Below are positions 11,363 to 63,705 of a stretch of 64,000 bases of DNA, in pieces (the first letter of the stretch is position 1; every line of letters begins with the position of its first letter). Made by a program: the position numbers and the translations under genes. The stretch covers positions 186,001 through 250,000 of the forward strand of contig NC_134368.1 in the NCBI RefSeq assembly GCF_035582795.1, in the 5' to 3' direction. A model generated the notes under the pieces. That model was not told the DNA's origin, did not search any database, and saw only the letters and a list, made by a program, of their open reading frames with translations. The DNA comes from Mycteria americana. Lineage: Eukaryota > Chordata > Aves > Ciconiiformes > Ciconiidae.

Positions 11363-11368
11363 AATAAA
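11363..11368 (+). terminator. AUP1: AUP1 poly(A) signal AATAAA
   Basis: Canonical AATAAA 73 bases after the AUP1 stop codon, giving a very short 3' UTR. The next gene's start codon follows about 420 bases later. Confidence 0.85.
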
Positions 11369-11791: not shown

Positions 11792-13757
11792 ATGGCGTGC
11801 GCCGGCGACGACGGTCCGTGGGGCGCCCGGGGCGTGGGTCAGTGGGGTCCCGGGTGGGCCGGCATGCACCGGGTCAGTGGGGTCCCCGGGTGGGCTGGCA
11901 TGCACGGGGGCGTCCGGGTGAGTGGGGTCCCGGGTGGGCCGGCATGCACCGGGGGGGTCTGGGGCAATGGGAGTCCCGGGTGTCCCAGACAGGCTGATGT
12001 GACCCGGGGGGCCTGGATCAACGGGGAGCCTGGGGGTCCTGGGCAGGCTGACGTGCACGTGGCGGGGGTCTAGGTCAACGGGAGTCCTGGGAGGGCTGAC
12101 ATGCACCGAGGAGGGGGGGGCAAGTCCATGGGGAGCCCCGGGGTCCTGGGCAGGCTGGCGTGCTCCAGGGGGTCCAATTCCATGGGGGTCCTGGGTGGGC
12201 TGATGTGCGCTGGGGGGGGGCGGCCGGATCAACGGGGGTCACGGACAAGTGGGCTGATGTGCACCGTGGTGGCTGGGGCAGAGGCAGATGGGTGTCCCGG
12301 GGGAGCAGGGCACACCGAGGAGAGCCCTGGGCAGGTGGGGGGGAACAGGAGGTCCCAGGTCAGAGACACGCTCGGTGCTCCCATGGTCCCTGGGCAGTGG
12401 CGTAGGATGCACCAGGGAGGGCTCCTGGATGGGACGGGGTGAGCCAAGGAGGCCTCTTGGACGGAGTGGGGTGTGCCGGTGGGCCCGGGGCAGAGTGGGT
12501 GGGCAGCGCAGGGGCCAGGCTGGTGCTGGGCTGACAACCCCCCCAGGCTCCTGGGTGGAGCTGCGGTGTGGCCCAGGGTGCCTGGAGCCGGAGCCCGCGC
12601 CCTCGCGGTTCTCCTCCTGCCACGCTGACGTGGAGCAGATGCTGCTGGAGGCCCAGCTAGAGACGGAGAGCGGTGATGGGTGAGTCCTGAGGAGGAGCCT
12701 GGGCACCTGGAGTCCTGCCCGGCCAGGGTGGGCGTTGGGGGGCCAAGGGGTGGTGCAGGCTTGGTGACCGAGGGGGTTATGTTTGCAGTGCCCTGCTCAC
12801 GCTGGGCTCCCCGGCCTGGGATGACAATGGAGCCAGCCAGGCAAGTGAGCAGCTGGGAGAGAGCGAGCTGCTCCCTCCCTGCAGCCAGCCCCAGCTGGGC
12901 TGCCCCCACCCCCGGCAGGTAAGGGAGCTGGCCCCCTGTGCCGCGCTGCGCCCCGCGGGCCATGCTGGCCGTGCCCCTGGCCTCACCTGCCCTATGCCTC
13001 CTCCTAGCGGGATGTGCCGGAGGAAGCCGAGCGGAAGGAGCGACGCCTGCCAGCATCCCTCGGCTGGGCCTGTGCCTGCCGCCCGCAGCGTCTGTCTCCA
13101 AAGTAAGGCCCGTGTCCCCCACAAGCATGTCCTGCTGTCCCCCGCCCTTGCTGTCTGCCTCGCCACCCCTGTCCTTCTGTCCCCGTACCCTCCTGCTGTG
13201 CTCTGCTCTCTTCCCTCGTGCCCCCTTTAACCATGCACTTTTCCCAGGGAGTTTGCCTTTGTGTGCTCCCCCCAGCCAGTGCTGTGGAGCCTGCAGGGAG
13301 GTGCAGTGGGGAGAAAGAAGAGACTTTTCAGTTCAGAGCTGCTGCTGCTCTTCATCCCCTCGCTGCTGCTCAGCCACGTGCTGACCCTGGGACTGGGGTG
13401 AGTTCCTGATGGGCCTGACCTGTGCTGTTGAGTGGCCTTGGCCAGAACCGACCCCTTGGGTGCAGGCAGGGTGAGCCCTGCGCTGCTGGGCGTCTGTGCA
13501 GTCTGGGGCTGTCCGGGGGCTGTCCCCGTGGGAAGTGGAGGAACGCTCCTGGAGTTGGACTGTTCATCCTTGGGTGCTGTTCTACACCACTTCTCCTAGC
13601 AGCCACAGTCTTCTCCGTGGCTGCTGCCCTCTCCCCTCACTACTGGCTTGCTGAGGCCCAGCAGGCTGTCCCCATGCGAGTGCCTTACAGTTGCTCTCTC
13701 TAATCCAGGATCTACATTGGGAAGCGGCTGGCAGCCTCCTCAGCAAACCCGCTGTGA
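11792..13757 (+). CDS. BNIP3/BNIP3L-family mitophagy receptor, third-paralogue (BNIP4-like) type
   Basis: Six exons with matching phases: 11792-11813, 12547-12679, 12789-12918, 13008-13102, 13248-13397, 13709-13757 (TGA 13755-13757), encoding 192 residues. BNIP3-family proteins are tail-anchored in the outer mitochondrial membrane and bind LC3/GABARAP to drive mitophagy. Visible: LIR core W10-V11-E12-L13 inside GSWVEL, split by intron 1 within the preceding Gly codon; HADVEQMLLEAQLE, matching the family NGDMEKILLDAQ box; SPKEFAF, matching PPKEF; KKRLFSSELL; and a C-terminal anchor SLLLSHVLTLGLGIYIGKRL that keeps the Ser-His and glycine packing residues of the BNIP3 dimer. The conserved family stretch around SDW..DWSSRPENIPP is replaced by unrelated sequence with a C-A-C motif, so this is neither BNIP3 nor BNIP3L. 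The exon-1 donor (G|GTCCGT) is weak, but its phase fits. The ATG sits in good context (gccATGg). Confidence 0.9.
11835..12330 (+). repeat. Degenerate GC-rich minisatellite in intron 1 of the BNIP3-like gene
   Basis: Imperfect tandem units of roughly 35-60 bases, each combining GTCAGTGGGGTCCCGGGTGG-like and GGCCGGCATGCACCGGG-like segments, drifting towards GGGCAGGCTGACGTGCACG. Long open frames here on both strands come from the repeat. Confidence 0.65.
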
Positions 13758-14073
13758 AGAGCTGGGCTCAGCGAGATGGGTGGCTCCACCATTCCGCTCC
13801 TCCGCTGAGCATGTGGAGGGAGCCCAGGCACCAGTGCAGCCCAACTGCTCCCAGACTTCGTGTTTGTGGCACGAGGCACTGTCTCCCCTTATCCCTTCTT
13901 TAGCCCCAGCCTAGGGAGCTGATCCTGCCCGCCCATGTAGACAGGAACCCACTGATGGCAGCTCCCTGCTGCAGGCAGCCCCTGCCCTCCCCATCCCTTG
14001 ATTACGGGTCCAGGTTCCTCCTCTTTAACACAAGACTGTAAATACGACTCCTGAGCCTGCAACACCACATGCA

Positions 14074-14079
14074 AATAAA
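14074..14079 (+). terminator. BNIP3-like gene poly(A) signal AATAAA
   Basis: AATAAA 316 bases after the stop codon, in ATGCAAATAAACAG. It gives a compact 3' UTR and ends the gene just before the convergent DOCK transcript. Confidence 0.8.
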
Positions 14080-14369
14080 CAGCCCTGTGCCAGCTCGGGA
14101 GGCAGAGCAGCATGCCGGCAGCCACCGCGCCAGACCCAGCACAGCCCAGCCAGGGGAGAGTGAGCGTGCTCCCCAGCGGCATTGGGTTCCCATGGGCTTT
14201 CCCTGCCACGGGGCTCCAGGCTGCAGGAGGGTGAGTCCCTGCTCTTTGGGTGCTGGGGCACAGTGCCAGGGCGGTGCCTGGCTGTGGAAAGGCCCCTGGT
14301 TTGGGCTGTGTGTGGGCAGGGTTGGGAGCTGGGGCTCATACAGGGTTTTCAGCCCCACCGCAGGGTCCC

Positions 14370-15240
14370 CAGCTGATGTGTTAGTCCTTTATTAGTTGGC
14401 CGTGGCCTGCTGCAGCGGGGAGGCAGGGGCTGGAGCCCAGTACGGCTGGCTGAGGCAGCAGCACCAGCCTGGCACAGGCAGGGCTGCAAAGCCAGATCCT
14501 GGCAGGAGAGCTGGCACTGCAAGGCACGATGCTCCCCGGGCCCACTCGCAGACCTGGCTGGCTCCTGTGCAGTCACAGTGCCCGGGCCAGAAGTGTTTGT
14601 CCCGGTGCTGCAGGAGGGGGTGGGTGGCCAAGCAACAGGAGCTGCCCCTGGGGTCGAGAGCAGGAGGGGAGGGAAGAGCTTAGCACACACCGGCGGAGAC
14701 CTTGCTGGTTGTCCAGCACCTGGGGTGATCCACTGGCAGTTCAGGGTGGAGGGAGGAAAGTCCTCTTCGGCATGGTGTGGTTGCACTGCTGGAGGGGCTG
14801 TGTGGGTGGGAGCTCAGCGCAGCTCTGTGCGGGTGAGGCTTCCCAGCACGGGCTGGCGTGCAACTGCTTCGCATCAGCAGGAAGGTGAGCGTGGCCTGAG
14901 GGCTGATGCAGAGCCCTGGGGTGGGGAAGTGTTTGGGGACAGATGAGTCCCAGCCCTGGGGGGCACCTGGAGGGTGGCAATAGCCAGCCCTGGCTGGACA
15001 CAGGATGGCGGTGCCCTGTGCCGCCCTGGGTACCGGGGCGCACAGGGAGTCCCGTGGCCATGCAGGATGCTTGTGGCGTAAATACTACAAGAGGGGTGGG
15101 CAAGGGGTGGTCCAGCAGGCAAGGATCAAGCAGGGCTGTTCATCCAGCAACCAGCTGGGAGCAGGGGCACCGCAGGCTTTTCCATCCCCTTGGGCAGGGG
15201 TGGACGCCAGTGGATGGTGCAGCTGCAGGCAGGCGCCGGG
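14370..15240 (-). other. Putative DOCK 3' UTR
   Basis: Minus-strand sequence between the DOCK stop codon (15241-15243) and the AATAAA at 14388-14393 (reads TTTATT on the plus strand). No homologous coding sequence seen. The DOCK and BNIP3-like genes converge tail to tail, their poly(A) signals about 310 bases apart. Confidence 0.6.
14388..14393 (-). terminator. DOCK poly(A) signal
   Basis: TTTATT on the plus strand is AATAAA in the sense of the DOCK gene. First canonical signal downstream of the stop codon, implying a 3' UTR of about 0.85 kb. Confidence 0.65.
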
Positions 15241-17302
15241 TCAGAGCTGTGACACTCGCTTGGACTTTGGTGGCGGAGGCGGAGGCGACTTCAGCCCTTT
15301 ATTTCCATCTGCTGTCGGCGACGTGGATGCCTGCAAGCAGAGCAGGCAGTTAGTGGGGGCGGTGGGTAGCAGGGGCCAGGGGCCTGGGCCAGGCAGTACC
15401 TTCCCTCCGGCTGCGGCGTCGCTCTGCTCCAGGAACGTCTCGTACACCGTGGGGCTGATCTTGCGGGGCAGCGGCGAGGCCTTGCTGGCACTCTTCACAC
15501 GGCCGCCAAAGCCAGTGGGAGTCAGGGACAGCCCTGCGCCGGCAGGGGCGGTGGGCTGAGTCTGGAGGGCTGTGGGGGCCCTGGGAGGGCCCATGGAGCC
15601 CATGGGTGTGCTCTGGACTGCTAGGTGCCCTGGGCTGCCAGGGCTAGCTGGAGCATGACAGCCCTGGGCAGACAGGCTGGGGGTGGCATGGGGCGGAAGC
15701 CCAGCTGGGGGGGGGGGGGGGGCGGTGCTGGCTCCCACTGGGAGCTGATCCCGGCACTGAGACTCAGTGGCACGAGGTCTGGGATCGACGACCAGCAGCT
15801 CCAGGGGGAGCGTTCGGTGGGGGACGTGAGCCGCGTGGGGTCTGCCTGTGCTTTTGGTACCGAGTGCTCCCTGCCTGCTCCCGGCTGCAGGACATGCCTG
15901 TGCCATTGTGGGGACGGCACAAGGGGGTGAGGGTGCCTGTGCTGGGGTGCAGGGCTGGGGGTGCTGGTATCTGCCCTGCTGGGGTGGGGGCACAGCCCTG
16001 CTCGCGGAGGTAAAGGCTGGATGCTGCTTGGGGCTGTAGGGGCTAGGGAAGGTGCCCCCCCAGCCATGCCAGGGGCGCGTGAGGGGCCAGGAAGGCACCC
16101 CAAGCCTGCAGCCATGGTGGGAGTACCTGCAGTGCTGGGCTGAGCACCAGCGGCGTCTCGGCTTGGCAGGGGCTGTTTCCCCTCAGAGCTGCCCAGGCCG
16201 CTCTCGCTCATGTTGCGGGAGAGTCTCCGCTTCTCGTCCTGGGGCGCAGAGGGGAGGCTCAGTGCCTAAGCGAGGGCCAGGCTGCATCGCAGCACCCGTG
16301 GCCCCGGGAACGCAGAGCCTCTGGCAGGGTGCGATGCTTCCCAGCGCCCTGCCCGCAGCCCAAAGGCAGCCCCTGCCCACAGCCCTGGGTCTCCAGCCTT
16401 GTGCCCCACCAGGCTCTGCTCCTGCCCTCCCTGCTGTCAGCCAGCTGCGCCCTGCAGCAGGGGCTGCCACCAGCCCCCCGAGGGGTACCGGCTGTCCCGA
16501 GGCCTGGTGCTGCCAGCTGGGCCAGGGGCTCCAGGTGCAGCAGGATGCCTGGGGGAGCGCAAGCAGGGCCCCGGGGAGGAGGGGAGGCACCAGGGTTGTG
16601 CTAAGTATCACCTTGGGCTCTGGCAGCTCCGAGATGGACTGGCGCAGGTCCTGCCGCCGGTACCCAAAGAAGGTGCTGGAGCGGTTCTCCTTGCGCTCGT
16701 TTCTGCGGTCCTCGCTCTCGGAGGTGCGAGGGGCAGGCTTTGGGGTCGGGGGTGCCTCCGTGCTGTGGAGCAACTGTGGCTGGTGAGGGGCAGGTGGGTG
16801 GCAGGGGGACTGGGGAGCAGGGCTACGCCATGGGCCGGCCGGACCATGGCCAGGAGTGGCTGCCCTCAGCCAGGCACCAGCACCATCTCCAGCAGATCTT
16901 AGCAGTGGATGCTTAGGAGGGACAAGCCAGCAAGACAAGCATGGATGGCTCAGGTGACAGCAATGTCCAGGTGAGCCTGGGGGCTGCACATGAGGTGTCT
17001 CTACTCCATGCCCCCCACCACGGACAGGGTGGCATGGCAGGATGGACCCCTGAGATGTGGCTTGGCATAAAGGGAAGCCAGGAAGGCAGTGGGCTGGGGA
17101 GGTGGGAGAGAAGCGTCTGGGGTGGAGGAGAGTGAGGATGGCTCAGCGGTGTGGGGCCAGTGGGGAGGGGTGAGGGGGGGTGGCTTGGGGCCAGTGCTCC
17201 CCACCACAGCACTTGCCTGTCTCCAGCATGGCTCAGCCGGTCCCAGTCGCGTCCCCAGGCCATGGACCGGGGTCGACCACTCCGCCGGTCCTCAAAGCAG
17301 AC
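15241..17302 (-). CDS. DOCK C-terminal tail exons
   Basis: Five exons, 5' to 3': 17302-17217, 16762-16612, 16238-16127, 15569-15400, 15330-15241. The first carries [10 protein letters not shown], the conserved DOCK-A segment just after DHR2. The next has a basic stretch ([18 protein letters not shown]) and the third [20 protein letters not shown], resembling DOCK2's tail. The last two give [17 protein letters not shown] and [15 protein letters not shown], a PxxP tail of the sort bound by Crk/SH3 partners in DOCK1. Phases agree throughout. The 5' limit of exon 15569-15400 is the least certain, since several in-phase AG acceptors exist up to about 15,690. The donor of exon 17302-17217 is GC, not GT. 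Confidence 0.8.
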
Positions 17303-20300
17303 CTGAGAGCACAGGGAGCCTGAGAGAGAGCCAGGAGGGATGAGAGTGCAGAGCCTCCCCTCTCCTTCCCTTGACTCAGCCAGGGCCAGCAATGCCCTCT
17401 CTGCCCAATCCTGGTTTTGTGCCAGTACCAGCCACCCCAGGTAGTGCTGTCCCCCCACCCAGGGCAGGCAGAGGCCCCAAGGTTCCCCATGCACAGTGCC
17501 CCTTACCCTGTTGCTTCTGCAGCTGCAGCCCCATCAAGCTGTTCCCTGCTGCCCCAGACCTGTGATGGCTTGTCCAGCGTCACCCCACAGGTGCCACGCA
17601 CCATCCGCGCAGCCCCCACTGTGCCTGCACCATGCTCACCGCCCTGGCACTCACCATCTCCCGCACCCCATACTGGCTCTCCACCTTGGCTCGCAGCTGC
17701 ACGAAGCACTGCTCCATGCGCTCATGGAAGGGCCGTAGGTCCTCCGTCACCTTCCGCCCATGGATCCGGATCCCCTCTGCCAGCAGCGGCGTCTGCAGGA
17801 GAATGGGGACGGGTCCGCCTGGTCTTGGGGGGCTCCCCCAGGATGGGGATGCTGGGCACTTGGCGCCCCAGGGCAGCTGTCCCCTGCAGCCACTGGAGGG
17901 ATGCTGCGGGCTGTACCTGCCAGGCGATCAGGTCCTTCAGCTTCTCGATGTTCCCCTCATCCTCGGGGTGCTCCTGCAGGTAGGACTCCTGGAAAAAGGC
18001 CTGCAACGACCCCCTCTCAGTCCCACTGATGGGCTGGTTTGGCTCCGCGCAGGCAGGGGTTGGCACAAAGTGGTGCCAGTGCCTGTGGTCGCCAGCCCCA
18101 AGAGTGCCCGCGCCAGCCCTGGTGCAGCACCCATGTGTCCTCACCGTCTCGTACTTGGCAAAGCCACCCATGACAGCAGGGTCCACGATGCCGTTGAGCA
18201 GCATGGAGAGCGGGTTGATGGGCAGGCTGTGGTCATTCTGGTGCCGGTTGATCTCACTCATAATTTTCTCATTTGTTTTCATCATGGTCTCGATGGCATT
18301 TTCCAGGGGGGAGATGATAGTCTGTGCCCAGGGAGGGAAGGTCAGCAGCCGGCTGACCCAGCGACCTGCCCATCCTGGTGTGGGCCAGCAGGCTGGTCTC
18401 TCCCTGGTCCCACGGTGAGAGAGGCCCCGGGGTTGCACATCTCACCCCACGAAGCCCCTCAGACCCCTGGCACCAGCTGCCTGGAGCTGAGCCGAGGGCT
18501 CACGGGGGAAGCACTGGAAGTGCTGGTCCCTGGCTCTGAGCACAGGCTGCTGGCAGGGTTAGTCCTGCAGGCAAGAGGCTGCAGGCCAGGTGATGGGCAT
18601 GTGGCAGCAGCAGGTCAGCGGTGAGCTTATGGGAAACCTGGGTAAACGTCGTTGTCACTGGGGGGGGGCAGCTGTGCAACGGCAGACACACGTGTCAGTG
18701 CCAGCACTCATGCAGCCATACAGTTGCCCTGCAGCACAGCTGTCGTGCAACAGCCCAGCTAGTGCATTTCACATGTCCCTTGCTGCAGCGCCTGGAACAC
18801 CCTGGACTTTAGCCAAGCACCTCCCTCTGACAGAGGTGTAAAACCCACGCGCGGGGCTGTTGTCAGCAGCGCCAGTAGCTGAAACTCCTCCGGCACCTCT
18901 GCTGCTCCCTGCACGTGGTCTCCTGCTTCCCATGGAGGAGATGTACATCCCCGTGGGTGAGCCACACAAACCAGTCCCTGTCACCGGGTTGATGCTACCA
19001 GCACCAGCTGAAGGAGGCTGAGGGTGCCCTGAGTGCCTGGGGTCTCCATGCCCAGTGCCAGCAGAGAAACCCTTCCCCATGGCATGGGACAGCGTTCCCA
19101 CATGGCACTGCCCCGAGATCAGCCCTGGAGCCGGGGCAGCAGGGGCCAAGGTGATGCCAAAGGGGGGGTTATCCCCTGCTGCTGGGCAGGAGTGGTAGCT
19201 GGGCTCTGTGTTCGCAGAGGGAAGGGGCCCGTGCTCGCACCCTGCTCTGCAGGTGGAGGGTGCACATGGGAGCTGGGTCCGCTCTGCTGTGGGCACTGCC
19301 CTGGACCACACACCCGAGGGACCACAGGGGCATGAGAGCGAGCTGGGAGTCACAGAGTTTGGGGGCTCAAGCACCTCGTGGGCTGGATCGGGTTTGCACT
19401 GAGAACAGAGGCTGACGGGGCATGGGGACCGGGGCCGGAGCTCAGCTGGGGCACCAGGCGGGACGTGCTCCCCACACCCCGGCTTCAGCCACTTGAGCTT
19501 GTGAAGCCTGGAAGGGGCTGGGGGCAGCACGCCTGCCGGGGTTTGTGATGCCGCTCGGGGGAGGGATGCCCTGGGAGGGCCCCGCTCCCCCCGCACCCCC
19601 CCTCCTCACCGTGGTGGTGGAGGTCACCACAAACCAGCGCAGGATGCCGGGCAGGGGGTAAGCTGTTACGAAGGTCGTCCGCTCGATCCACATGGTCTGT
19701 GGGGAGGGCAGCAGTCATCCTGTCACCCTCCTCCCCATCACCCTGGGACACCCCACCTCTCCCTCCCATGGGCACAGGACCACCACCTTCCCCATCCCAG
19801 GAGTGGGGGACTCCCTGTCTCTCCTGCATCCCCCTTCCTCTGGACACCTGGCTCCTCAAGGGACCCCCCCAGCTCTCCCCATCCCTCCCAGCTGGGGTCC
19901 TGGCAGCCCCCATCAGCACTCACTGCAAATTCATTGTCTGGATCCTTCGGGCCTTTCCTGAAGGGCCGCGAGTAGCTGAACTTCTGGACGTGGTTGGCTT
20001 TATAGAAACTGCAGGGGAGGGAAGGGGCAGAGCATGGGAGAGGTGCCCCTGTTGCGTCCCCTCCCACGCGGAGCAGAGCGGGTGCACCCTGTCCGTGCTG
20101 GGGCACTCACTTGGTGATCTGCTCCGGGATGCTCCGGTCCTTGAACCGGACCTTGGCTTCCTCCACTGGCTGCACGGTGAAACACTGGATATCTGCGGGA
20201 GTGAAGGAGCCACGGGCGCGCACCATGGAGGATGGGGGCTGTGGGGGAGAGGGGCCCCAGGGGCGTGTGGGGAGGTGCTGCGGGACCTGCGCAGGGGGCC

Positions 20301-53300: not shown

Positions 53301-56300
53301 GATGAGAAGAGGCTCCGGTGGGACACGGGACACAGGGTGGGGGGAGCGGGGACAGTGCGGAGCGCACCGGGTGCCAGGAGCTGGGGCAGCGCTCCAGGCA
53401 CCGGCCCTCGGGGATCAGCCACAGAGGAGGAGCAGACCTGCCTGCCTGCGTCCCGTCCCAGGGCTATGCATGAACGCGCCAGCTGTGCACCCCCGTCGCG
53501 GCCCTGAGCCCTTCCTCTGCATCTGTGCTGGGAAGTCGGGGTCCCTGCCCATGCTGCGCCCCTGCTAAGGGGCTGTCTGCCACGGCTCGCCCTCTTTGCT
53601 AGAAATAGCTGGGGACAATCAGTGTCCTCGCAGGGCGAGGTGACGGGAGGTGACGGGAGGTGACGGGAGGTGTTAGCGTGCCGTGTGGGGCTCGCGGGGC
53701 GCTCCCTGTGTGTGGGGTGGCCGTGCCACGTGCATAGTCCCGGGCACACACCGCAGCACCTCGCTGATCCGATGGGACGAGGCTGGTGTGAGGAGATCAG
53801 AGCACTTTCCGTGTGAGGAAGCATCACGGCACGTGGCCACCAGCAGCCAGCGCTGCAGGGTGCTGCGGGGACACTGGAGGGCTCCGGCACTTGCAGGAAA
53901 CCTGAGGGCTGTGGTGGGGGGCACAGCCCCCCCCTACCCAGACCCAGGGTGCCCTAATTCCATGCATCACCAGCGGTGTGACAGGCAGCAGCACAGCCCT
54001 TGCGTCTTGTGCCATCTCCTGATGCTGCAGCTGCCCTCAGCCCATCGGGTCCGGGCGCGGTGCTGGTGGCAGCAGCAGCAGGACGAGACACCCCGGCCCC
54101 AGGGGTGGGCAGCCCCTCCCTGGGGGGCTCAGTGCTAACCGGGGTCCCACAGACCCTGGGCTCGCCCCCCTGCGTCAGCACCAGTCCCCAGCTAGGGCAG
54201 CTGGCTGGCTGGCTTCCCACCCCGGACAGATCGCGGGCAAAGTCTCGGCATGTGTTAGTCCGAGCTGGGAGGGACCCCGCAGCCCCGGGGGGACGGAGCA
54301 GCACCACCAGAAGCTGTACCCTGCTCGGGGGAGTACATCACGGTCCTGCAGTGAGGGGATGGCAGCGAGGGCAGCACGCTGCTGCGGCTGGCAACTACAG
54401 GGTGCCCGGCCTGTCCAGAGCCTTCCTCTGCCCTCCCCTCCGTGCTGGGGGTGCGGCTGCCTTGCCGAGGATGGCCAGCCCTTGCAGCAGTGGCACGGGT
54501 CCCTGCGGGGCACTAGCGGGCATTGCTGCGGATGGCCTGATCAGGGCACAGGAGCCACTGCACGCCCGAGTCAGGGACTCTGCCTCTGCTGCAGGAAACC
54601 CCAATTGCCCGGTGCCTGAGTGCCACCGAAGTGCCACGGGCACAGTGTGCCGGGAACAAGTCCCTGGCACTTAGGGAGGCCACTTGCAGCAGTTCGGCTC
54701 CCCAGGAGGGACTTGGCGTGTTTGTCCTTGTTTAGGGAAGGCATTTAGGGCAAAGGAGCTCTGGCGAGCGGGTGAAACAGAGGAAAAAGCACAGTCAAGC
54801 CCAAGAGAAAAGCAGAGGCAGCGCCAGGCTTTGAGGCTGGATAAGAGAGAAGGTGGGGGGGGACAGCTGAGGGTGACACATCCCAAAATACCCCTTGCCA
54901 CCAGGTCAGGGGCTGTTTGTCAGCCTGTCCCTCTGGAAGGAGAGGTCCCTGGATGCTCCAGCACAGCAGGTTTAGCTGTGCGGTGCCACATGCCCAGCTG
55001 CAGACCGCAGCACCGCAGGTGGGTCGGCTGTTTGGGACGGATCCAGCCCCCACCCCCCCACTTACAGCCTCCGAGGGTGAGGGTGGTGGGCAGGAGCTGT
55101 CTGAAGGGCATGCCAGCAGGACGTCCCCTCGCAGGGGCACACGGTGACCCTGGGAAGTCTGCCTACCGGGAAGTGCCGGGAGCCCTGGGGAAAGCTGCCA
55201 GAGAAACGCCCAAACGGCCACTCCGCGCTGCAGGCTCCCAGCCAGCGGCTGCTCCCGCAGGAGGCCCCTGCCCTTCCCGCGGGCTCAGTCATCCCCTCCC
55301 GCCGCAGGACGACAGCCGCTGAAGCCAGGCTGGTCCCCTGCCATGCACGCCGTCCCCGTGCAGCAGCCTCGGGAGCGTGGCGGGGCTGAGGTCCCCGGGG
55401 ACACGCCCCGGGGACGTGCGGGGGGCTGAGCTCCCCAGGGGTCTTGCGGCAGGGCGCAGGGGTGGAGGCGGGTGCTGGGGCACGGAGCCGTGGCGGGCAG
55501 GGGGCCACAGCAGGCGATGCCCTCTAATGCCATCCCCTTCACCCTGCTCGCCCGCAGCGTGGAGCACGATTTCCGGCAGCAGGAGGGCCGCTTCCAGCAG
55601 GTGCTGAGCCATATCGAGGGCGACATGACGCCAAGCTCCCCCGCAGCAGCGGCGGGGGCCGTCCTGCCGCCCAGGCAAGAGCCATCGCCAGTGACGAAGC
55701 TGCCTGCGAAGCTGGACACGAAGAAATCCAGGCGCAAATGCTTCTGGTTCCTGTGAGCCAGCAGTGCCTGGCGGACCAGGAGCGTGGGGGCACCATCCCA
55801 GCACTGACCCCCTGCCCACGTCTCCCTCCTCCTCTCCCTCCCTCTGATGGTAGGGTTTGGGTAGCACCAGCTTTTATATTTTTAACCGTTCAATTTAATC
55901 TATCGGAGCTCCTGTGTAAATAAGGCGAGGGGAACAATGGCTGTATTTAATGAGAATTCAATAAATTCTATGGAGACGCTATTTTTGTTACATCCTCTCC
56001 CACCTGTGCACTTCTGTTCTGGATGAGGATGAGGAGGGGGCTGGCGGCCGTTCCCCTGCACGGGCTGCAGTTCTTGCTCAGCCCCAGGCGCCCACAGCCC
56101 CTTGGCGAGAGCAGCCTTGGGCCCTCCTCTTCCTCAGGGGTCCTCGAGGGCCGCCTGCAGCCCCGGTGCTCCCAGCCTGCCCCGGCTGAAACCAGCACCC
56201 GTCCCTGCGCCCCACAGCATGGGCTGCTCGCCCTTTCCCCCGGCTGCTGCCTGCAGGGTAACCAGGAGTGCCGAGGGTTTCTCCTGCAGCCCTGGTCAGA

Positions 56301-59300
56301 GACGGTGGAAAATGGTGTCCGGGGCACCCTGGCCGGGAGAGAGGAGACCTGTGCCCGAGACCTCCCGGGTGGGAGGGCAGGCTGTGTGGGGGTCCCGGGG
56401 GACATGGCTCTCCTTCCAGCGAGCTCCCCTGCGCGAGGCCGGGGGGCTGGGGGCTGAGCCCCGCACCTGTACCCAGGGCTGCCACAGGAGCAGGGGCTGC
56501 TTGGGGCTGCGGGGACTAGAAATTCCCTCTCCCCCTTCGCGGCCGGCTGGCAGGGCCAGGATGCGCTGGCTAATTGCAGGGAGAAAGGAATTAGCAGCTC
56601 AAATAGTCCAGCCTCTGCAAGGCTGCCCACGAGAGGAGAAATTCAGCGTCGGTTTAACGAGGGTCCCAGATCAAAGCGGCCGGCGGCAGCAGCGGGAGGC
56701 GAGTGTATGCCAAGGCGGCGCAGGAAGTGCTCCCCACGCTCCCCCCAGCCCGCCCGGACGCGCCGTGCCCTGGCCATCCTCCGCCGCCGCGGAGCCGGGG
56801 GGTGAACGCTCCCCAGAGCCCAGGGCCCGGACATGCTGCCCGCACACAGCACTGGGGCTCTCGCCTCCGTGTCCGCTGGCGGCGGGAGCAGTCACGGCTC
56901 TCCCAGCGGAGCCACCGGCCTCGGAGAGGACATCGCCCAGCCTCCTCCAGGAAGCGCCTGGCAGCCCGGGCCGCAGCAAGCGGCTGTCGCAACCAGAGGT
57001 CCGGCGAGGGGATTCAGAGGGCAGGAAGGTCTGGCCACGGCCTCTCCAGCTGGCGCCCACACCACGGTACCCCAGAGCAGGAGACTCGCACGTGCAGGAG
57101 CTGACATGGCGTTAAGCCCCATCCCTTGTGCCGGGGACGCACCTGGCGCTTGCAGGGCTGCAGCCCGGCAGTGCCAAGGGGGCTGGCGGTGCCAAGGGGA
57201 CCCGTGGTGCCCCGCTCACCAGCGGCCGCCCGAGCCTCAGCCGCAGCCTCTCCTGCGGCAGCTCGTCCCTTCCCTGCAAGGCGCTCGCGAGCCCGGTGGG
57301 ACGGGGCCGAGCTGTCAAGGCAGGGGCAGGGGAGGTCAGAGGTCTCTCAGTGCCCGAGTTCCCGGGACAGTGAACCTGGGGCGCTCCTCCCTTCTTGCCC
57401 AGCAGCAACAGGATGGATGGAGGCCACCCCCGGCGTGGGCACACGCGTCTCTGGTCCCCTCCAAGCCTTCCTGGCAGCCGCAGCTGCTGGAGCAGCCTGG
57501 GCTGAGGGGCCTCGGACGCCGGGGTGAAAGCAGGGGCTGCAGCAGCGGCATGAAAATCACGAACGGCGCTGGGAAAGCTGCCAGACAGCGTTTCTGGAGC
57601 CCAGCAGGGCCAGCGCGTGGGAAGGGGAGCAAGCGGTGGGAGTGAGGCGCAGCCAAAGCATCGCTCCCCTTCTCCCACACTGTACATGGGGCCACGCTTC
57701 AGCACCCAGTGTCGCAGCCTGGCAGAGCACGCACGCCCAACAGCTCTTTTTGCTCTTGCTTCCTCTGGCACTGAATCACGCAGCCTGGGAACAAAGGCTA
57801 AAAGCAAGATGATACCAAATGCAACCCTGTATGCATCTCCTGCCTGAGTCACATCTCCTGCCTGAATCATACTCCAACGCTGAGAGCCTGCTGTGCCCAC
57901 CCGGCACAGCCCCAGCGGTGCAGCTTTCGGCAGCAGAGCCTCAGGCGTGTCTGGTGAAGCAGCTCTGCCTGGCCATGAGGCCACTTGTGCCAGGGCGCAT
58001 GCCGGGGACTGCACTCGCCATCGGCTTGGCCAGTAAAACCACCCCAGGACAGCAGAGCCGCGGTCAGGAACGTCACCACGGGGCTGCACCGCCGGGGCTG
58101 CGCCGGCTGAGCGGGCAGGGGAGGGCAGGCTGAGCTGGGAGCCGGAGGGGAGACCCCACGCCTCCCCTGTCCCTCGGGGCTACGAGAAGGGGTCACCGGG
58201 CAGGGAGCGGCAACACCGGTGCCTCAGCGCATTGGCAGGAGCAATCCCAGCACCCGGGACGCTTGCAGAGCAGGGCAGCCTCATGTGCCGGAGAGCATGG
58301 GCAGGGCCAGTGAGGATAAAGCTCCTGTCCTGCCTGCCGGCTTTACTGCCTCGGTTTAGTTAGGTCTTTATTAATGAGAACAAAGAACAGGATGGCAAAC
58401 CTGCAGGCTTATCCCAAGAAGGCTCGAGCAAAGGGCCGAGCTGCCACTCCGGTTGCCCACGCTTCCCGAGGCATGGCACGCAGCGCAGCACGGTACAGCA
58501 CGGCGCTTCCCCGCAGCACGGCGCTTCTCCACTGCTGCACAGCCCCGCCACTCGCTCCAGGCTCCCGGAACGCGGTCGGACCCAACTCCTCGTCCACCCT
58601 CGCGACCCAGAGCAGCTTGTCGGGCCCATGCCTCACTGCCCAGCCGAGCACGCTGGGTCTGCCGCCACGTCTACATAAGAGTACCCAAGAACCCGCGCTG
58701 GCCACAGCTCTCTTTCCCCCTCCTTCACGATTAGATCATTGCACCCAGTGCAGCTGCTCTGCATGAAGCTTCGGCTGAGCAGCGCTCTGACCTGCCTACC
58801 CCTCCCATGAGAGGTGGGTGTCCCAGCACATTCCTCCCACGTGTTCTTGGCATGTAAAACTGTGACGGTTCACCGGGTCCAGTCACTGGTTTTCTGGAGA
58901 ATACAGCCCAGACCCCTCATCTGCTTCCAAAATGGGCTTCCTGCATCACAGACACGCTGCCTGCTCCTCCCAACGCACCCTCTGCTCCAGACCTGCTCCT
59001 GGCACGGCTTCCCCTCCCTTTTGGGCTTTCTTGTCCATCCTGCTGTGTTTAATACCTGCACATCCAGCCCCAGCCAGCTGGGCACCAGGCTGCACTGCCA
59101 GCTGAGGAGCAGCGTTGGTCGCCCGGTCCCAGACCCGTAAATCAGTGACGCCTTTTGCATCTCCCACATCACCCAAAGGCAGCCGTGGGAAGCAGCGCAG
59201 CCCCGATGCCCGGTGCAGCACAAGGCGGCGGCGGTGGTACTCACCCGCAGGGTGTTCTCCCGGTCCAGGACGATCACCCTCCGATTGACGGTGTGCAGCA

Positions 59301-62300
59301 GCCGCTCCAGGATCAGCTGGATGTGCTTCTTCACCTTCACCTGCAAGGCAAGAGGTGTCACGACCGTGCCTGAGCACCTGGCGCTGCCCGCCGTGGTGCC
59401 GGGAGGGAGGGCACAGGTGACAGCACCATCACCGCAGCCGAGGGGAATCGCCCCTGCGGCACACAGCCGGCATGTGGTCCCCAGCCCCCGCAAGCACCCC
59501 CTGGGCCAGACGCAGTCGGCCCCGTGGCACTGCCACAATTACTGCAGCTCCCCAAAAAAAGCAGGCAAGGAGGTTGCAAAGTGTTTGCAGTTATTCTTGG
59601 CAGAGGGCGCGGGAGCCGGAACTGAGGGCACAAGTTTCCTCAGCACCCCACAGTGCCCCGTGGGGTGGGGAGGAAGCAGCTCTGCTCCAGCCACGGGAGA
59701 CAGTGGACATCGGATAAGCCCCAACACCTCTGCAGCTCCAGCTGTGGGGGACCGTGGCCGCCGGACGAGCCCTGTGCCCGGGATCCTCAGCCATGGGACC
59801 AGACAGCTGTGGTCCTCGGCGGCGGCAGGACGGGAGCACGCTGCCAGGAGGGACAGGCTCATGGCATCTCAGGAGGCGGGAAATCACGAGCTGACTCTAA
59901 AGATTTGTGATTTATATGAAATACTGAAATAAGAGTCTTGTCCACTCCAGCGCGGCAAGTACGGCTCGTTTAATCACTGTGCGGGGGCTGGCAGCGTCAG
60001 GGCGACCAGCTGGAGCTGCAGCTGGAACGAGGCCACGCGCTCCGGTGCCAATATGGGGCTTGGGGTCCCTGGACAGCTCGGCCTCGTACGCCTCCCTGGC
60101 AAAGCTGGCCACCCAGCCGAGGACGGCTGGGGACGGCTGGGGACAGCCGTGTCCGCACTAGCCAGAGCTGTCCCCCGGAGCAGTCAGTACCACAGACAAA
60201 GGTGGGTTTCAGCTCACATGGGTTTGAAACATGAGAAGCATCCTCACCCGTGAGCATCCTGATTATCCTCTTCTTAAAGGCTATTTTAGTTTTAAAAGTT
60301 AAGGCCAAAACCAAGACATTTCAACCACAACTTCCAAGCTTTCCCCTCCATTGCCTGGGCTTCCCAGTGCCACAGGAATTAAAAAGCCATGCTCACACAG
60401 CCACCTCGCCCACCCAGGACACGGTGGCACACGTCTAATTCAGCTTCCACAGCGCCAGTCGCTGTGCTGTAGGTGTGACATCCGGACTTCCCAAGGGGTC
60501 CCAGAAAGGGACCCCAAAGCACAGACCAGCCTAGAAAGGACAGAAACGGAGGAAGTATCCTGTAGAGCCAGAGCACAGATCCCTGCGCTTTCCCAAAACG
60601 TTGCAGGAACGGCCACCACCGGCAGCGACTTCCAGCCACTCAGCCCTGCTGTGGGTGCACTGGGGCTTGCGGGGAGAGATGGTGATGGGCTCACTGGTAG
60701 CCCAGGGACGTTGCCTGATGCTAGCTGTAGAAAGGCAGGGGATGGAGGGCAGCACGCAGGCAACACAGGGAAAGGGGGACAGCTACCGAAGTGTGGACAT
60801 GCCTGGCCCCGTACATCAGACTGGCACCACAGCGACGTGACCCAGCACCCCACACCAGGCAGCGTGCTGCGTTTCTGTGCCGCAGGAAATGGAGGAGGAG
60901 AAGGGTGACCCAGGGAGGGAGCTGCCAGCGCAGCTGTGTGAGGGCTGTGCTCGCGCCTGTGACTTCAACGTGCTCAGCCCAAACACCCGTGATGCCAGGG
61001 CAGGAGCCTACAGGGAGAGCCGTGACTGCAGGTCACACTGCCGGGGCTGTCGGCAGTCGCCGGTTGTGCTCTGTCTTTTGTATGCTGCTTCCAGTGTTGC
61101 AAGCCCACACTTCATCCTTCCAGCGCTTGGGGAGCCCCGAGTCCAGCAGGGCCAAGCGGGGCCGTGCTGGGGGGGCCGCGACCCGGCGTGAGCCAGCTCT
61201 GGAGCACCAGCACGCCTCGCACACGTCTTGCCTGCCACGCTGGGAATGCCGCCGGGCCACCCTGCAGCCCCGATACCCCCTGAGAGCCGTGAGCCCTCGC
61301 TGGGTCCTTGCCTGAGCGAGGCGCTGGAACGGCCCGAGCCCACCCGCTGGTGCACGATGAAGCACTGAGGCCACGGGGGGGCAGGGCGAAGGTCCGGGCA
61401 CAGTCACCCCCCACCCCAGGGTGGGACACGGGGCACCGGGGGCTCACAGCAAGCCTAGAGCCACGCAGAGCCCCGGTCTCCCAGCCCTGTAGGGCACCTC
61501 CCGGGACTGACCCCATCACCGCAGCATCTCTGCCAGCAGCCCAGCTCCGCACGTTGGCTCCAGGTGACCATACAGGGTTTGTCACCATAATGAGATGCAG
61601 ATGAGCCCTTCCCAAACGCGCATGGGTGCCTGGCTCCTTCCCACCATCCGCCAAGCGCCGAAGCCCACCAGAGAAGCACTCACCAGCTCCGCGTCCCCAT
61701 GGTCCTTGTGCCGTCCCTCGCCTGCGCCATGCTGCGCTCGCCGCTCCTCCGCTCTCTGCAACAAACAGCACCCTGGGAAGTCGGGCGGATGCCCAGCAAG
61801 GACGGCCCCATCCCACCAGCGGCCAGCCCGGGACAAGTCAGGCACCCGCAGCAGGACCGTGCCTAGCCGGACGCCAGCCGGCTCAGCCCTGGACTGGTTG
61901 TTACTGCGATCTCTCGCTTTGGTACCCCGCACCAGCAGGCAGGCTCCTGCAGGCAGCATGGGGAGAAGGGGGTATGTGGGGGTCCCTGCTGCTCCGGGCC
62001 AGCTCTCTGCGGCGGGGTGCTGGGCTGGACCCCTGCGCCGCAGGGCTCTGGCTCACGTTTAGGGCCGTCGCTCCTAATTTTGGAGTGCAACGCTGCCCAG
62101 GGGCCATGCACTCCCTTGCCCTTGGGTCGGTGCTGTCCCTTGGCTGGGAGGCCTCTTCCCCACTTGTGGGGACTGACGGGAACTCGCCAGAGACCAGCTG
62201 AGGTGGAAATCAAAAGGTTTTTACCCCCAGCTTGGGCAGGTTCCCACTGGGATGGTGGGCGCCAACAGCCCCCTTTGACTTTGGATGGACCGTGATCAGT

Positions 62301-63705
62301 CCTAACCATTTCGTGGCCAGTAGTTTATGCTTAGCCCTATTCAAACGGGTTTAGTCAGATCATTTCCACGGTGATTACTGGAGAGGGAAAGGAGACAACA
62401 GAGAAGGTGGGATTTACCTTCTGGGCCTTGTACAGCACCTCCAGGATGTTGCTGAGCAGCTCAATGCAGGCATCCTCCTCCTCTCCCTTCTCAATCAGCT
62501 CCTGCAGGATGGGCACTGTCGTCTGCAGCAGCAGCTCCCGGCACTCTGTTGGGGCGGACACGGAGGCGCGGGGCTGGCGGGCATACCGGCACCGCCCCGG
62601 CACGGGAGAGGACGGGGCAGGAAAGGCACCAACAGGACAGACAGGACGAGCGTGACGCCTGCTCTGGGCTGCGACCCACACGCATGGAGCCGTCAACTTC
62701 CTCCTTGGATGGAGCAGGGTTTTTGGAAAAACATTAAATCCTGGTGGGAAGGCTCCAACACAGAGAATTCGTTGCAGCCTGTTACACAGCTACTTATCCT
62801 CTCTGCTAAAATCAACCAAACTAAAATAGAAAAGCCTCATCTGAACCTCTCCTGCTTCAGCTTCCGCCAACGGACTTTGTTCTGCTTCTCTGCTCTGTTA
62901 AAGGTGCGTACGATTTAACTGAATAGATGGAGACTTTTTAAACTGGACACCGTCTCGATAAACTAGAGTCTCTAGTGCTGAAAAACCTGTGCTCTTCCTA
63001 TTACATATTACTCTGTTCCTCTGCCCAGGGCTGGTATTTGCGGCACCACGCCGCACTGCCGGTTCCACGTTGCTGCTTATCCCTACAGTGGCACTACTAA
63101 AGTGGGGGCACGGGGAAGGAAAGTGGGGGGAAAACGTTTCTCTTGTTTTCTTGCTGGCACCACCGTCTGCCATTGTGGGGTGCGGAGGAGCGGTGTCGTA
63201 CGGCCTCCCCGGGGCTGTGGGGGGGGATGTGGGGAAGGACCCAGGGTGGGCTGTGGGGAGGGACGCAGGGTGGGATGTGGGGAGGGACGCGGGGAGCGCT
63301 CGCAGGATCGCGGTGGCTCAGAGCAGAGCCGGAGCAGGCGGCAGGAGGTGACCTGCCACCCGCACTCGATGGCTTAGACACGTTCACGTTGCCAGCTCTC
63401 AAAGTCTCCACGGGCAGAGACACAAAACGGTTCCTGCTGCCTGCGGCTGAGCTGCTACCCTGCTCCCCGGACCCTTCCTGCTGCGGCTGAAGCCCAGGGC
63501 CCCTGGCCCAGCTCCCCAAGGCAGCCCACTCCCCTTCTCTTTAAAGATGCCGTGTGGGTATTTGGAAGCTCATCGCGTCTCCCCCGTGCCCTTTCCTGCC
63601 CCGAGCCCCTCAGTTGTTTCTTCCTCACCCTGTCCTCTAAGCTCTGCTTTCTTCTGGACTTCCTCCAGTTTAGCCACAAGTTTCTTGTGCCACCCAAAAC
63701 CGCGC
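15241..63705 (-). CDS. DOCK-A subfamily Rac guanine-nucleotide exchange factor, DOCK2-like; 3' half only
   Basis: DOCK-A proteins (DOCK1, 2, 5) activate Rac with ELMO at the membrane through the DHR2 domain. Twenty-nine exons with unbroken phase are visible, about 1,015 codons, roughly residue 820 to the C terminus of a family usually about 1,830-1,870 long. Exons run from 63705-63629 down to 15330-15241 (TGA 15243-15241). Closest to DOCK2 by signature: [61 protein letters not shown]1-like features also occur: [16 protein letters not shown], and a proline tail [11 protein letters not shown]. Divergence from mammalian DOCK2 looks too large for a normally conserved DOCK2 orthologue, so a further paralogue is inferred. 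One intron (28,299-59,244) is 30.9 kb and holds an antisense INSYN2-like gene; most others are 70-1,300 bases. SH3 and DHR1 domains would lie beyond 64,000. Confidence 0.93.
17655..24116 (-). CDS. DOCK exons coding the DHR2 catalytic domain
   Basis: Fourteen exons, 5' to 3': 24116-24031, 23455-23299, 22992-22952, 22699-22609, 22521-22402, 21824-21735, 21588-21484, 20496-20355, 20192-20111, 20008-19924, 19696-19610, 18321-18145, 18000-17917, 17792-17655. They read [121 protein letters not shown], then [20 protein letters not shown] and [17 protein letters not shown]. The [12 protein letters not shown] nucleotide-sensor loop is intact, so exchange activity looks preserved. No frameshift or stop was seen. 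Intron 18322-19609 is the longest in this block and shows no coding sequence. Confidence 0.95.
22116..22165. repeat. (GGATG)10 pentanucleotide microsatellite
   Basis: Ten uninterrupted GGATG copies in the DOCK intron between exons 21824-21735 and 22521-22402. Length this pure suggests it is polymorphic. Confidence 0.95.
23554..23572. repeat. Poly(C) tract of 19 bases
   Basis: Nineteen consecutive C residues in a DOCK intron. A comparable 16-base G run lies at 15,707-15,722. Both are assembly-sensitive homopolymers. Confidence 0.9.
25488..28298 (-). CDS. DOCK exons coding the helical region just before DHR2
   Basis: Six exons, 5' to 3': 28298-28200, 27901-27807, 27147-27069, 26927-26827, 26606-26548, 25636-25488. 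Their translation is a near-continuous match to DOCK1/2: [120 protein letters not shown] and [20 protein letters not shown]. This segment forms the armadillo-like helical repeats connecting DHR1 to DHR2. Exon 28298-28200 is the first one 3' of the giant intron; its phase-0 start matches the phase-0 end of exon 59340-59245. Confidence 0.95.
26230..26440. repeat. Degenerate short-unit tandem repeat in a DOCK intron
   Basis: About ten loose copies of a 15-20-base unit around CCCACAGRYTTGCACA and ACCTGCAGRYTCACAC. Intronic; no coding evidence. Confidence 0.55.
28299..31690. other. Proximal part of the 30.9-kb DOCK intron
   Basis: No gene seen. Near-duplicate of about 46 bases at 28,345-28,425 (GGGGTGCACTGGGGC twice). 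A lower-GC island at 28,640-28,800 and another at 31,120-31,310 stand out from the GC-rich surroundings and could be regulatory, but carry no recognised repeat or open frame with homology. Confidence 0.4.
31690..32970 (+). promoter_or_regulatory. CpG island, candidate promoter of the nested INSYN2-like gene
   Basis: The most CpG-dense stretch of the window, made of CCGCCCC/GGGGCGG boxes, lying inside the DOCK intron. It is about 11-12 kb upstream of the INSYN2-like coding exon on the same strand. Possible first-exon donors are CAG|GTACCGGG at 32,380/32,381 and at 32,112/32,113. Frames of 439-569 codons run through it on both strands but match nothing known and simply reflect lack of A/T. It could alternatively serve a short DOCK transcript on the other strand. 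Confidence 0.45.
32981..33140. repeat. 66-67-base tandem repeat, about 2.4 copies
   Basis: CCGGTGGCACCCTGCAC-type unit starts at 32,981, 33,047 and 33,114, each followed by GCACTGAGCAC-type text. Directly flanks the CpG island. Confidence 0.75.
34290..34520 (-). repeat. MIR-like amniote SINE
   Basis: Starts in AATTATTATAATTATT and ends in GGGAAACCGAGGCACACGG followed by ACTTGC. In reverse complement this is the order found in MIR-family SINEs (core, CCTCAGTTTCC-like box, AT-rich 3' tail). Very old copy. Confidence 0.42.
36540..36735 (+). repeat. L3/CR1-type LINE 3' fragment
   Basis: Contains GGATATAAACTGGCCGTGAT, then GGAAATTAGAAGG and CTCTGGAAGAGCCTCCAAG, matching in order the 3' end of a LINE common in turtles and crocodilians and present as old copies in birds. 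Truncated at both ends. Confidence 0.5.
37441..37464. repeat. (GCAG)6 microsatellite
   Basis: Six perfect tetranucleotide copies inside the large DOCK intron. Confidence 0.85.
38590..38850 (-). pseudogene. CR1/L3 LINE reverse-transcriptase remnant
   Basis: The reverse complement encodes [25 protein letters not shown], the reverse-transcriptase box equivalent to DLSKAFD, followed after a stop and a frame change by [12 protein letters not shown], the conserved WI.NWLT segment. An isolated, dead fragment of a non-LTR element; no catalytic YxDD is visible. Confidence 0.7.
42571..43420. repeat. 40-base minisatellite, about 20 units
   Basis: Nineteen clean units start every 40 bases from 42,601 to 43,321, with a partial unit before and two decayed ones after. 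Each unit joins CCCCACACAG, a GACGGG/GACAGG/GATGGG hexamer, TCCCCTGTGCCCAG, and TCCGGCCATG or TCTGGCCATG. A second type has CACACAACAGG in place of CACAGGACGGG. Because 40 is not a multiple of three and the unit lacks stops, several frames stay open on both strands (up to 491 codons); these are not genes. Confidence 0.97.
43622..43637 (+). promoter_or_regulatory. MEF2-type site abutting a CAGCTG E-box
   Basis: CTATTTTTAA (fits YTAWWWWTAR) runs directly into CAGCTG, in a lower-GC island at 43,610-43,760, about 270 bases upstream of the INSYN2-like exon. Both matches are exact; occupancy is inferred. Confidence 0.4.
43904..44281 (+). other. INSYN2-like 5' leader with four upstream ORFs
   Basis: A pyrimidine tract and CCCCACAG acceptor end at 43,903. 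If the exon starts there, its leader holds four upstream ORFs: 43,922-43,978 (18 codons), 44,004-44,075 (23), 44,094-44,156 (20) and 44,153-44,278 (41). The last stops three bases before the main ATG. No transcript evidence is available here, so the leader is inferred. Confidence 0.5.
44282..55756 (+). CDS. INSYN2A/INSYN2B-like inhibitory-synapse factor nested in the DOCK intron
   Basis: INSYN2 (FAM196) proteins belong to the gephyrin-associated inhibitory postsynaptic density. Three coding exons: 44282-45792, 50570-50644, 55558-55756 (TGA 55754-55756); phases agree and give 594 residues. The start has good context (gagccATGg) and the MVS opening I recall for INSYN2A. Visible: [19 protein letters not shown] and QVRFKDLVE (about 24-57); [13 protein letters not shown] (about 120-133); a long low-complexity Pro/Ala/Gly-rich middle; a coiled coil [20 protein letters not shown] then [14 protein letters not shown] (about 474-504); a cysteine cluster [40 protein letters not shown]; and a C-terminal KCFWFL. 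Coil and cysteine regions look nearest INSYN2B. Human INSYN2A and INSYN2B lie antisense within DOCK1 and DOCK2; the same arrangement here supports the call. Expression probably starts from an upstream non-coding exon. Confidence 0.92.
46165..46270. repeat. Short minisatellite, about four copies
   Basis: Units around GCCCCAGGGACAGCCTCCCT recur with spacing of about 25-27 bases. Intronic. Confidence 0.6.
46755..46995 (-). repeat. CR1 LINE 3' fragment
   Basis: The forward strand reads GGAGGTCTCTGGTCCAACGC, then AGGCTGCTCGGGACCTTGCC, TCTGTCCCAGTGTTTGACCA and CCCTCGGGGTGAAAATGCTC. This is the order of a CR1 3' end in antisense, the LINE family typical of birds and other sauropsids. Best-preserved repeat in the window and the main repeat evidence for a sauropsid source. 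Confidence 0.78.
48190..48410. repeat. About 37-base minisatellite, some six units
   Basis: Units alternate GCAGCCCCTGGCACRGCC with CGCTYGCCCCTCGCC, giving long frames on the minus strand without homology. Imperfect, 10-20% divergence by eye. Confidence 0.7.
49013..49062. repeat. CA/TA microsatellite
   Basis: A CACACA run (49,013-49,026) followed by a TATATA run (49,037-49,062), within the most AT-rich patch of the INSYN2-like introns. Confidence 0.85.
50645..55557. other. INSYN2-like intron 2 of the coding region
   Basis: No exon supported. Contains a perfect three-copy decamer TGACGGGAGG at 53,641-53,670 and a lower-GC patch at about 52,830-52,900 with GCTGTTAATTAGGCTC. Confidence 0.45.
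55960..55965 (+). terminator. INSYN2-like poly(A) signal AATAAA
   Basis: AATAAA in TTCAATAAATTC, 204 bases after the stop codon. The A/T-rich, GC-poor 3' UTR contrasts with the coding exon. Confidence 0.85.
55985..59244. other. Distal part of the 30.9-kb DOCK intron
   Basis: No gene seen. A GC-dense patch at about 56,675-56,830 and a lower-GC patch at about 56,560-56,660 are the only features that stand out. DOCK exon phases on either side match directly, so no coding exon is expected here. Confidence 0.4.
59245..63705 (-). CDS. DOCK exons 5' of the giant intron
   Basis: Four exons, 5' to 3': 63705-63629, 62545-62418, 61755-61684, 59340-59245. They read [40 protein letters not shown] with [40 protein letters not shown]; and [20 protein letters not shown]. 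The NRRVI box is the conserved DOCK-A landmark before the SHYVACM exon. The 24-codon exon 61755-61684 is low in conservation and is called from splice consensus and phase alone. Exon 63705-63629 is supported by phase: its final G completes the Glu codon of the next exon. Earlier exons lie beyond the window. Confidence 0.82.
63227..63292. repeat. 24-base tandem repeat, about 2.7 copies
   Basis: Unit CTGTGGGGAGGGACGCAGGG plus TGGG, in the DOCK intron between exons 63705-63629 and 62545-62418. Confidence 0.75.

Follow-up and report, generated by a model that had tools for sequence, protein, structure and literature searches.

The 64-kb stretch of DNA analysed here (the window) very probably holds a fourth ohnologous BNIP–DOCK-A–INSYN2 block, located beside AUP1 and not seen in mammals. 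Its three genes are labelled BNIP-X, DOCK-X and INSYN2-X, and the block is most likely whole in birds and partial in reptiles, amphibians and fishes. This reading follows from a DOCK clade that reaches the cartilaginous fishes, a BNIP gene standing apart from BNIP3 and BNIP3L, same-family companions beside the other DOCK-A genes in human and a conserved linkage; six contig mismatches and the position of human INSYN2B in the best tree lower our confidence in it. A fourth ohnologous block had been proposed in an earlier note on this DNA, and the DOCK and BNIP trees and the linkage largely support that proposal, although the SH test leaves two DOCK2 links and the INSYN2 tree is not decisive. New is the BNIP–DOCK–INSYN2 block as a unit. 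The finding adds a member to known families and corrects their phyletic range; it is not a new kind of system. It is partly known, as the genes are annotated '-like' and BNIP3L2 has been published as confined to fishes. In the literature titles and abstract openings covered, with subscription literature mostly outside their scope, neither a fourth DOCK-A gene nor a third INSYN2 is described.

Organization of the locus

Spliced alignment resolves the window into four protein genes, AUP1, a BNIP3-family gene, a DOCK-A gene and an INSYN2/FAM196 gene, with stop-free spliced frames and introns that are nearly all GT-AG. Pfam backs the BNIP3, DOCK and FAM196 assignments of the three block genes. The features are the following:

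386..11257, plus strand: AUP1, left neighbour of the block; 11 exons modelled (386-528, 1070-1220, 2166-2353, 2442-2514, 5526-5599, 6478-6544, 7132-7237, 7598-7723, 7905-8047, 8278-8366, 11242-11257), ends approximate
11792..11813, plus strand: BNIP-X exon 1 (ATG, MACAGDD), from reading of the sequence, in agreement with Mycteria P0122
12547..12679, plus strand: BNIP-X exon 2, with LIR motif SWVEL and SLiM VEQMLLEAQLE
12789..12918, plus strand: BNIP-X exon 3
13008..13102, plus strand: BNIP-X exon 4, where a BH3-like region has CRPQ in place of SRPE
13248..13397, plus strand: BNIP-X exon 5, transmembrane segment
13709..13757, plus strand: BNIP-X exon 6 and stop (IYIGKRLAASSANPL)
15241..62545, minus strand: C-terminal half of DOCK-X, very probably a fourth DOCK-A gene; exons 62545-62418, 59340-59245, 28298-28200, 27901-27807, 27147-27069, 26927-26827, 26606-26548, 25636-25488, 24116-24031, 23455-23299, 22992-22952, 22699-22609, 22521-22402, 21824-21735, 21588-21484, 20496-20355, 20192-20111, 20008-19924, 19696-19610, 18321-18145, 18000-17917, 17792-17655, 17302-17217 (GC donor, less sure), 16762-16612, 16238-16127, 15533-15400, 15330-15241
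28299..59244, minus strand: DOCK-X intron holding INSYN2-X, between codons ..ENTLR and SHYVACM..
44336..45792, plus strand: long coding exon of INSYN2-X, in-frame ATG at 44345; relatives such as Larus P0002 start further upstream
50570..50644, plus strand: middle exon of INSYN2-X
55558..55756, plus strand: last exon of INSYN2-X, C-terminus KCFWFL and stop

The stop codons of BNIP-X and DOCK-X face each other about 1.5 kb apart, and INSYN2-X, on the plus strand, sits inside one 31-kb intron of DOCK-X, antisense to it. The arrangement described in the earlier note, a BNIP3-family gene beside a DOCK-A gene with an antisense INSYN2-like gene in one intron, is thus borne out by the spliced models and by Pfam, and so is the position beside AUP1, modelled at 386-11257 to the left of BNIP-X. 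The AUP1 exons come from spliced alignment against a human AUP1 sequence, and a polyadenylation-like AATAAA is found near 11363. Taken in 4-kb steps, G+C content rises from about 50% over the AUP1 exons and introns of the first 8 kb to 59-70% in the rest, the change falling at about 8-12 kb. At 42580-43409 in the DOCK-X intron, about 0.9 kb upstream of the long INSYN2-X exon, there is a minisatellite with a 40-bp unit in about 21 copies (93% matches).

The DOCK-A gene and its paralogues

The window covers DOCK-X from roughly the equivalent of DOCK1 codon 854 through the C-terminal end, with its stop at 15241, and the gene runs past the right edge. The span given in the earlier note, up to 63705, needs correcting, as 62546-63705 contains no convincing DOCK exon and the N-terminal half falls outside the window; a weak exon at 63686-63629 was discarded for want of an AG acceptor. 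Comparison with PDB entries places the protein in DOCK-A, with DOCK2 at 998 bits, DOCK5 at 929 and the next, DOCK10, at 61, DOCK3/4 (DOCK-B) not being among the PDB matches. Pfam identifies TPR_DOCK (E 2e-131) and the DHR-2 lobes A, B and C, and the protein has the conserved IVDPAVMGG segment and a tail, PPPPPPKSK, of the DOCK1/DOCK5 type. DOCK1 and DOCK5 have proline tails of this kind, and DOCK2 is not known to have one. An SH3-like start was read by eye in six full-length relatives, the N-terminus of DOCK-X itself lying beyond the window, and the other domains of the relatives were seen as listed Pfam accessions only.

A search with the DOCK-X fragment gave 2508 matches, the best 120 of which were examined and assigned to types by comparison with reference sequences. 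X type accounts for 104 (birds, turtle, alligator, amphibians), and the others are seven chondrichthyan, eight of DOCK2 type and one from lamprey; no mammal is named in these 120, one of which (P0256) carries no name. Among them the best-scoring match over the whole query is from penguin (97%). The top-scoring match, P0242 (Acipenser, UNVERIFIED_CONTAM), was rejected as X; it is a DOCK2 model in which segments recur several times, an artefact. Three UniProt entries named 'Dedicator of cytokinesis 2' or 'protein 2', P0295 (turkey), P0296 (chicken) and P0303 (kestrel), are of X type. The chicken X protein P0283 (Gallus gallus) lies on a contig of 90,563,926 bases, which is about as large as chicken chromosome 4.

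The DOCK tree comprises 28 sequences and 775 columns, made up of 24 of the 120 listed matches, the window and three human proteins, DOCK1, DOCK2 and (from PDB) DOCK5; it is unrooted, has no outgroup beyond DOCK-A and represents DOCK1 and DOCK5 by the human proteins only. Eleven tetrapod X sequences and the seven chondrichthyan ones (sharks, rays, chimaera) form an X clade (UFBoot 100), beside a clade of seven tetrapod DOCK2 (100) and a DOCK1+DOCK5 pair (98) joined by lamprey (100). The AU test gives the best tree p 0.998 and rejects the constraints sharks+DOCK2 (0.0039), tetrapod X+DOCK2 (0.0071), X+DOCK1/5 (0.0001) and X+DOCK5 (0.0003), while the SH test rejects two of the four and keeps the two DOCK2-linked ones (p 0.097 and 0.0985). 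A position of DOCK-X inside the DOCK2 clade, as expected of a DOCK2 orthologue, is accordingly rejected by AU and not by SH. Interim mixture-model trees left the clades unchanged, with support values that are not usable. The identity of DOCK-X to the human proteins is 68% for DOCK1, 67% for DOCK2 and 67% for DOCK5. At 35 diagnostic sites, fixed in the seven DOCK2 and differently fixed in DOCK1, DOCK5 and lamprey, it agrees with DOCK2 at 10, with DOCK1/5/lamprey at 14 and with neither at 11, which confirms the mixture of DOCK2 and DOCK1 signatures pointed out in the earlier note; such a mixture is the pattern that would be expected of a further paralogue. At only three sites do all X and chondrichthyan sequences share a residue that none of the others has.

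Two explanations that tie the window to DOCK2 have to be weighed against this tree. It is unlikely that X arose later, within tetrapods or jawed vertebrates, when a segment with DOCK2 and INSYN2B was duplicated: X and DOCK2 would indeed be sisters if the tree were rooted on DOCK1/5/lamprey, but the X clade includes sharks, rays and chimaera, the union of tetrapod X with DOCK2 has an AU p of 0.0071 (though an SH p of 0.0985), and a BNIP gene adjoins X, whereas DOCK2 is not known to have one beside it. It is very unlikely that the window is simply the bird's own DOCK2–INSYN2B locus, moved or fast-evolving, next to a diverged BNIP gene. The database names ('DOCK2', 'DOCK2-like', 'INSYN2B protein-like'), the first place of DOCK2 among the structure matches and the SH result would agree with it; against it, the X and DOCK2 clades are separate, and the 67% identity of DOCK-X to human DOCK2 compares with 86-90% for the six reptile DOCK2 in the tree.

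The nested INSYN2 gene

INSYN2-X belongs to the INSYN2/FAM196 family (Pfam FAM196, E 1.4e-58). Automatic models that divide its long exon into several smaller ones were rejected on reading the continuous open frame. From 186 matches the best 120 were examined, and these come from birds, turtles, lizards, amphibians, lungfish, cartilaginous fishes and ray-finned fishes, with no mammal named among them; the nearest of these 120 is Larus (89%), and 99 of the 120 carry the ending C[F/Y]WFL.

The INSYN2 tree was built from 40 of the 120 listed matches, the window and two human proteins. In the best tree the lizards branch first and the sharks have human INSYN2B as their neighbour within the X group (support 71), a point in favour of the window being the bird's own INSYN2B locus, as is the resemblance of the INSYN2-X ends to those of INSYN2B. 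The human INSYN2B branch measures about 1.5 substitutions per site and its placement is not fixed; outside or inside the X group, INSYN2B fits equally (AU 0.53 against 0.47), the outside constraint fitting as well. On a separate third INSYN2 the tree is thus neutral, giving neither support nor exclusion. An argument against the own-locus explanation is that the INSYN2-X type and canonical DOCK2 are on contigs of different size in Podarcis, Hemicordylus and Carettochelys.

The BNIP3-family gene

BNIP-X is intact, with six exons and no internal stop (Pfam BNIP3, E 3.9e-25), and its protein matches, with 100% identity along its whole length, a database cluster whose named member is Mycteria americana, the wood stork, so that the window probably comes from a stork or a near relative; the ATG stays at 11792, where it was first read. 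The BNIP3 domain, the LIR, the SLiM and the C-terminal transmembrane segment place it in the BNIP3 family. It lacks both marks of a BNIP3 or BNIP3L orthologue, in that it groups with neither human protein and has no SRPE sequence. As the earlier note had observed, the SRPENIPP core known from human BNIP3 is missing; CRPQRLSP stands in its place.

The protein search yielded 136 matches, and the best 120 consist of 109 bird or unnamed sequences, one from alligator and 10 of fish type (one unnamed), with no turtle, squamate, amphibian, shark or mammal named. Conservation among the 109 bird or unnamed sequences covers the LIR, the SLiM and the membrane segment (mean commonest-residue frequency 0.96; about 48, 88 and 101 sequences with residues there) but does not extend to the SRPE position (0.64, from about 104 sequences). 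Of the 47 that reach the LIR, 46 have its tryptophan; the central SLiM leucine is found in 101 of 102, and serine at the SRPE position in none of the 104 with a residue there. SRPE is held by all 10 fish-type relatives and not by alligator; the one SRPE match among the 109, in P0224, is located elsewhere in the protein and was set aside. Where human BNIP3 and BNIP3L have alanine in the membrane pattern, threonine occurs in 103 of the 103 matches with the pattern found (120 listed).

The BNIP tree contains 20 of the 120 listed matches, the window and human BNIP3 and BNIP3L, these two human proteins being its only references, without canonical BNIP3 or BNIP3L from fishes. A single group (support 100), outside both human proteins, unites the fishes with alligator and birds, and joining the fishes to human BNIP3 or to human BNIP3L is rejected (AU 0.002 each). 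Zebrafish bnip4 is probably a BNIP3L2 member. A 2017 publication describes BNIP3L2 as a third BNIP lineage found only in ray-finned fishes and coelacanth (PMC5526904). The fish proteins that group with BNIP-X are probably this BNIP3L2. New are the occurrence of a probable BNIP3L2-type lineage in birds and alligator and the loss of the SRPE turnover motif from BNIP-X in archosaurs.

That the block is the BNIP3L–DOCK5 block (human 8p21), with an INSYN2 that mammals lost from DOCK5, is extremely unlikely. BNIP3L and DOCK5 adjoin in human, and the DOCK-X proline tail is like that of DOCK5, but X+DOCK5 is rejected by both tests (AU p 0.0003, SH p 0.0103), BNIP-X lies outside human BNIP3L, and bnip3l is placed in the dpysl2-ppp2r2a group in all vertebrates that one study examined (PMC6142374). 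As for a fourth block, the trees that the earlier note had proposed as a check put DOCK-X outside DOCK1/2/5 and BNIP-X outside BNIP3/BNIP3L, with human INSYN2B within the X group (71); its claim that none of the three is a simple orthologue of the human counterparts therefore holds for DOCK and BNIP and is left even for INSYN2.

Linkage and distribution

Linkage was judged from identical contig sizes printed for each protein cluster, a proxy and not a map. All three X genes are on a contig of the same size in Struthio, Falco peregrinus, Leptosomus, Phaenicophaeus and Pterocles; DOCK-X and INSYN2-X in Ambystoma, Heptranchias, Heterodontus, Rhinoraja and several birds; DOCK-X and BNIP-X in alligator and several birds; INSYN2-X and BNIP-X in eel and several birds. 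X genes of the same species are on contigs of differing size in Podargus, Caloenas, Patagioenas, Cuculus, Scyliorhinus and Pleurodeles, both contigs being chromosome-sized in the last; different assemblies may lie behind these six mismatches. The database names for the bird genes are 'DOCK2-like', 'INSYN2B protein-like' and 'BNIP3-like'.

No mammal is named in the 360 listed matches (best 120 each for DOCK, BNIP and INSYN2), which agrees with the deletion in mammals that had been claimed, the loss itself being a lead only. Among the matches listed, DOCK-X has none in squamates or ray-finned fishes (best 120 of 2508), and BNIP-X has none in turtles, squamates or amphibians (best 120 of 136), though INSYN2-X is there. 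Lizards and ray-finned fishes have INSYN2-X but yield no DOCK-X among the best 120 matches; in squamates and ray-finned fishes the nested gene may have survived its host. The lineage losses of X genes, mammals included, are leads drawn from the best 120 matches per gene.

Proposed origin and functions

Human DOCK1, DOCK2 and DOCK5 presumably all have same-family companions (INSYN2 and/or BNIP genes) nearby, and we take 10q26, 5q35, 8p and 4p16/2p13 to belong to the FGFR paralogon. We propose that the ancestral block would have been a BNIP gene next to a DOCK-A gene with INSYN2 nested antisense in a DOCK intron, and that the early vertebrate whole-genome duplications would have multiplied it. 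On the tree, with the reservations that it is unrooted and that SH keeps the DOCK2 links, DOCK-X already existed before the split of cartilaginous and bony fishes.

From the SH3-like start of its relatives, the DHR-2 lobes, IVDPAVMGG and the PPPPPPKSK tail, DOCK-X most likely acts in the manner of DOCK1 and DOCK2, exchanging nucleotide on Rac in dependence on ELMO. INSYN2-X is presumed from its family name to be an inhibitory-synapse protein like INSYN2A, the weakest step of the proposal. The conserved LIR, SLiM and membrane segment make BNIP-X most likely a mitophagy receptor of the outer mitochondrial membrane. In NIX the region around SRPE is reported to be needed for PPTC7 binding and turnover (PMC11316107). 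Archosaur BNIP-X is devoid of SRPE, on which NIX depends to bind PPTC7 and to be turned over through FBXL4, and should then escape PPTC7/FBXL4 control and be more stable. Taken together, and as a tentative picture that we hold possible rather than probable, jawed vertebrates might have had a fourth DOCK-A Rac exchange factor and a fourth INSYN2/BNIP neighbourhood, lost whole by mammals, the bird and crocodilian BNIP member being a mitophagy receptor freed from PPTC7–FBXL4 turnover and the squamate and ray-finned INSYN2-X having outlived DOCK-X.

DOCK-A genes control the migration of leukocytes and myoblasts, and BNIP3 and NIX control mitophagy. If birds, turtles, salamanders and sharks are treated as having DOCK1/2/5 and BNIP3/NIX only, a conserved further member would be overlooked, and a bird database entry labelled 'DOCK2' can be a different gene (P0295, P0296, P0303). 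The present reading would also correct the published claim that only fishes have the third BNIP lineage, and archosaur BNIP-X would offer a natural test of a mitophagy receptor without the SRPE turnover sequence.

Comparison with known systems

DOCK-X resembles DOCK1, DOCK2 and DOCK5 in its DHR-2 lobes and TPR region and in the SH3-like start of its relatives, and differs from them in its separate clade, its 67-68% identity to each human protein and its mixed diagnostic sites, together with a proline tail like that of DOCK1/5. INSYN2-X shares with INSYN2A and INSYN2B the FAM196 domain and the antisense position in a DOCK-A intron, and is distinguished by a long proline-rich middle, the KCFWFL end and, in two lizards and a turtle, a contig differing in length from that of DOCK2. 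BNIP-X groups with eel, gar, tarpon and cyprinid proteins, which keep SRPEN and are probably BNIP3L2; the published range of BNIP3L2 takes in fishes only, whereas BNIP-X is found in birds and alligator, without SRPE.
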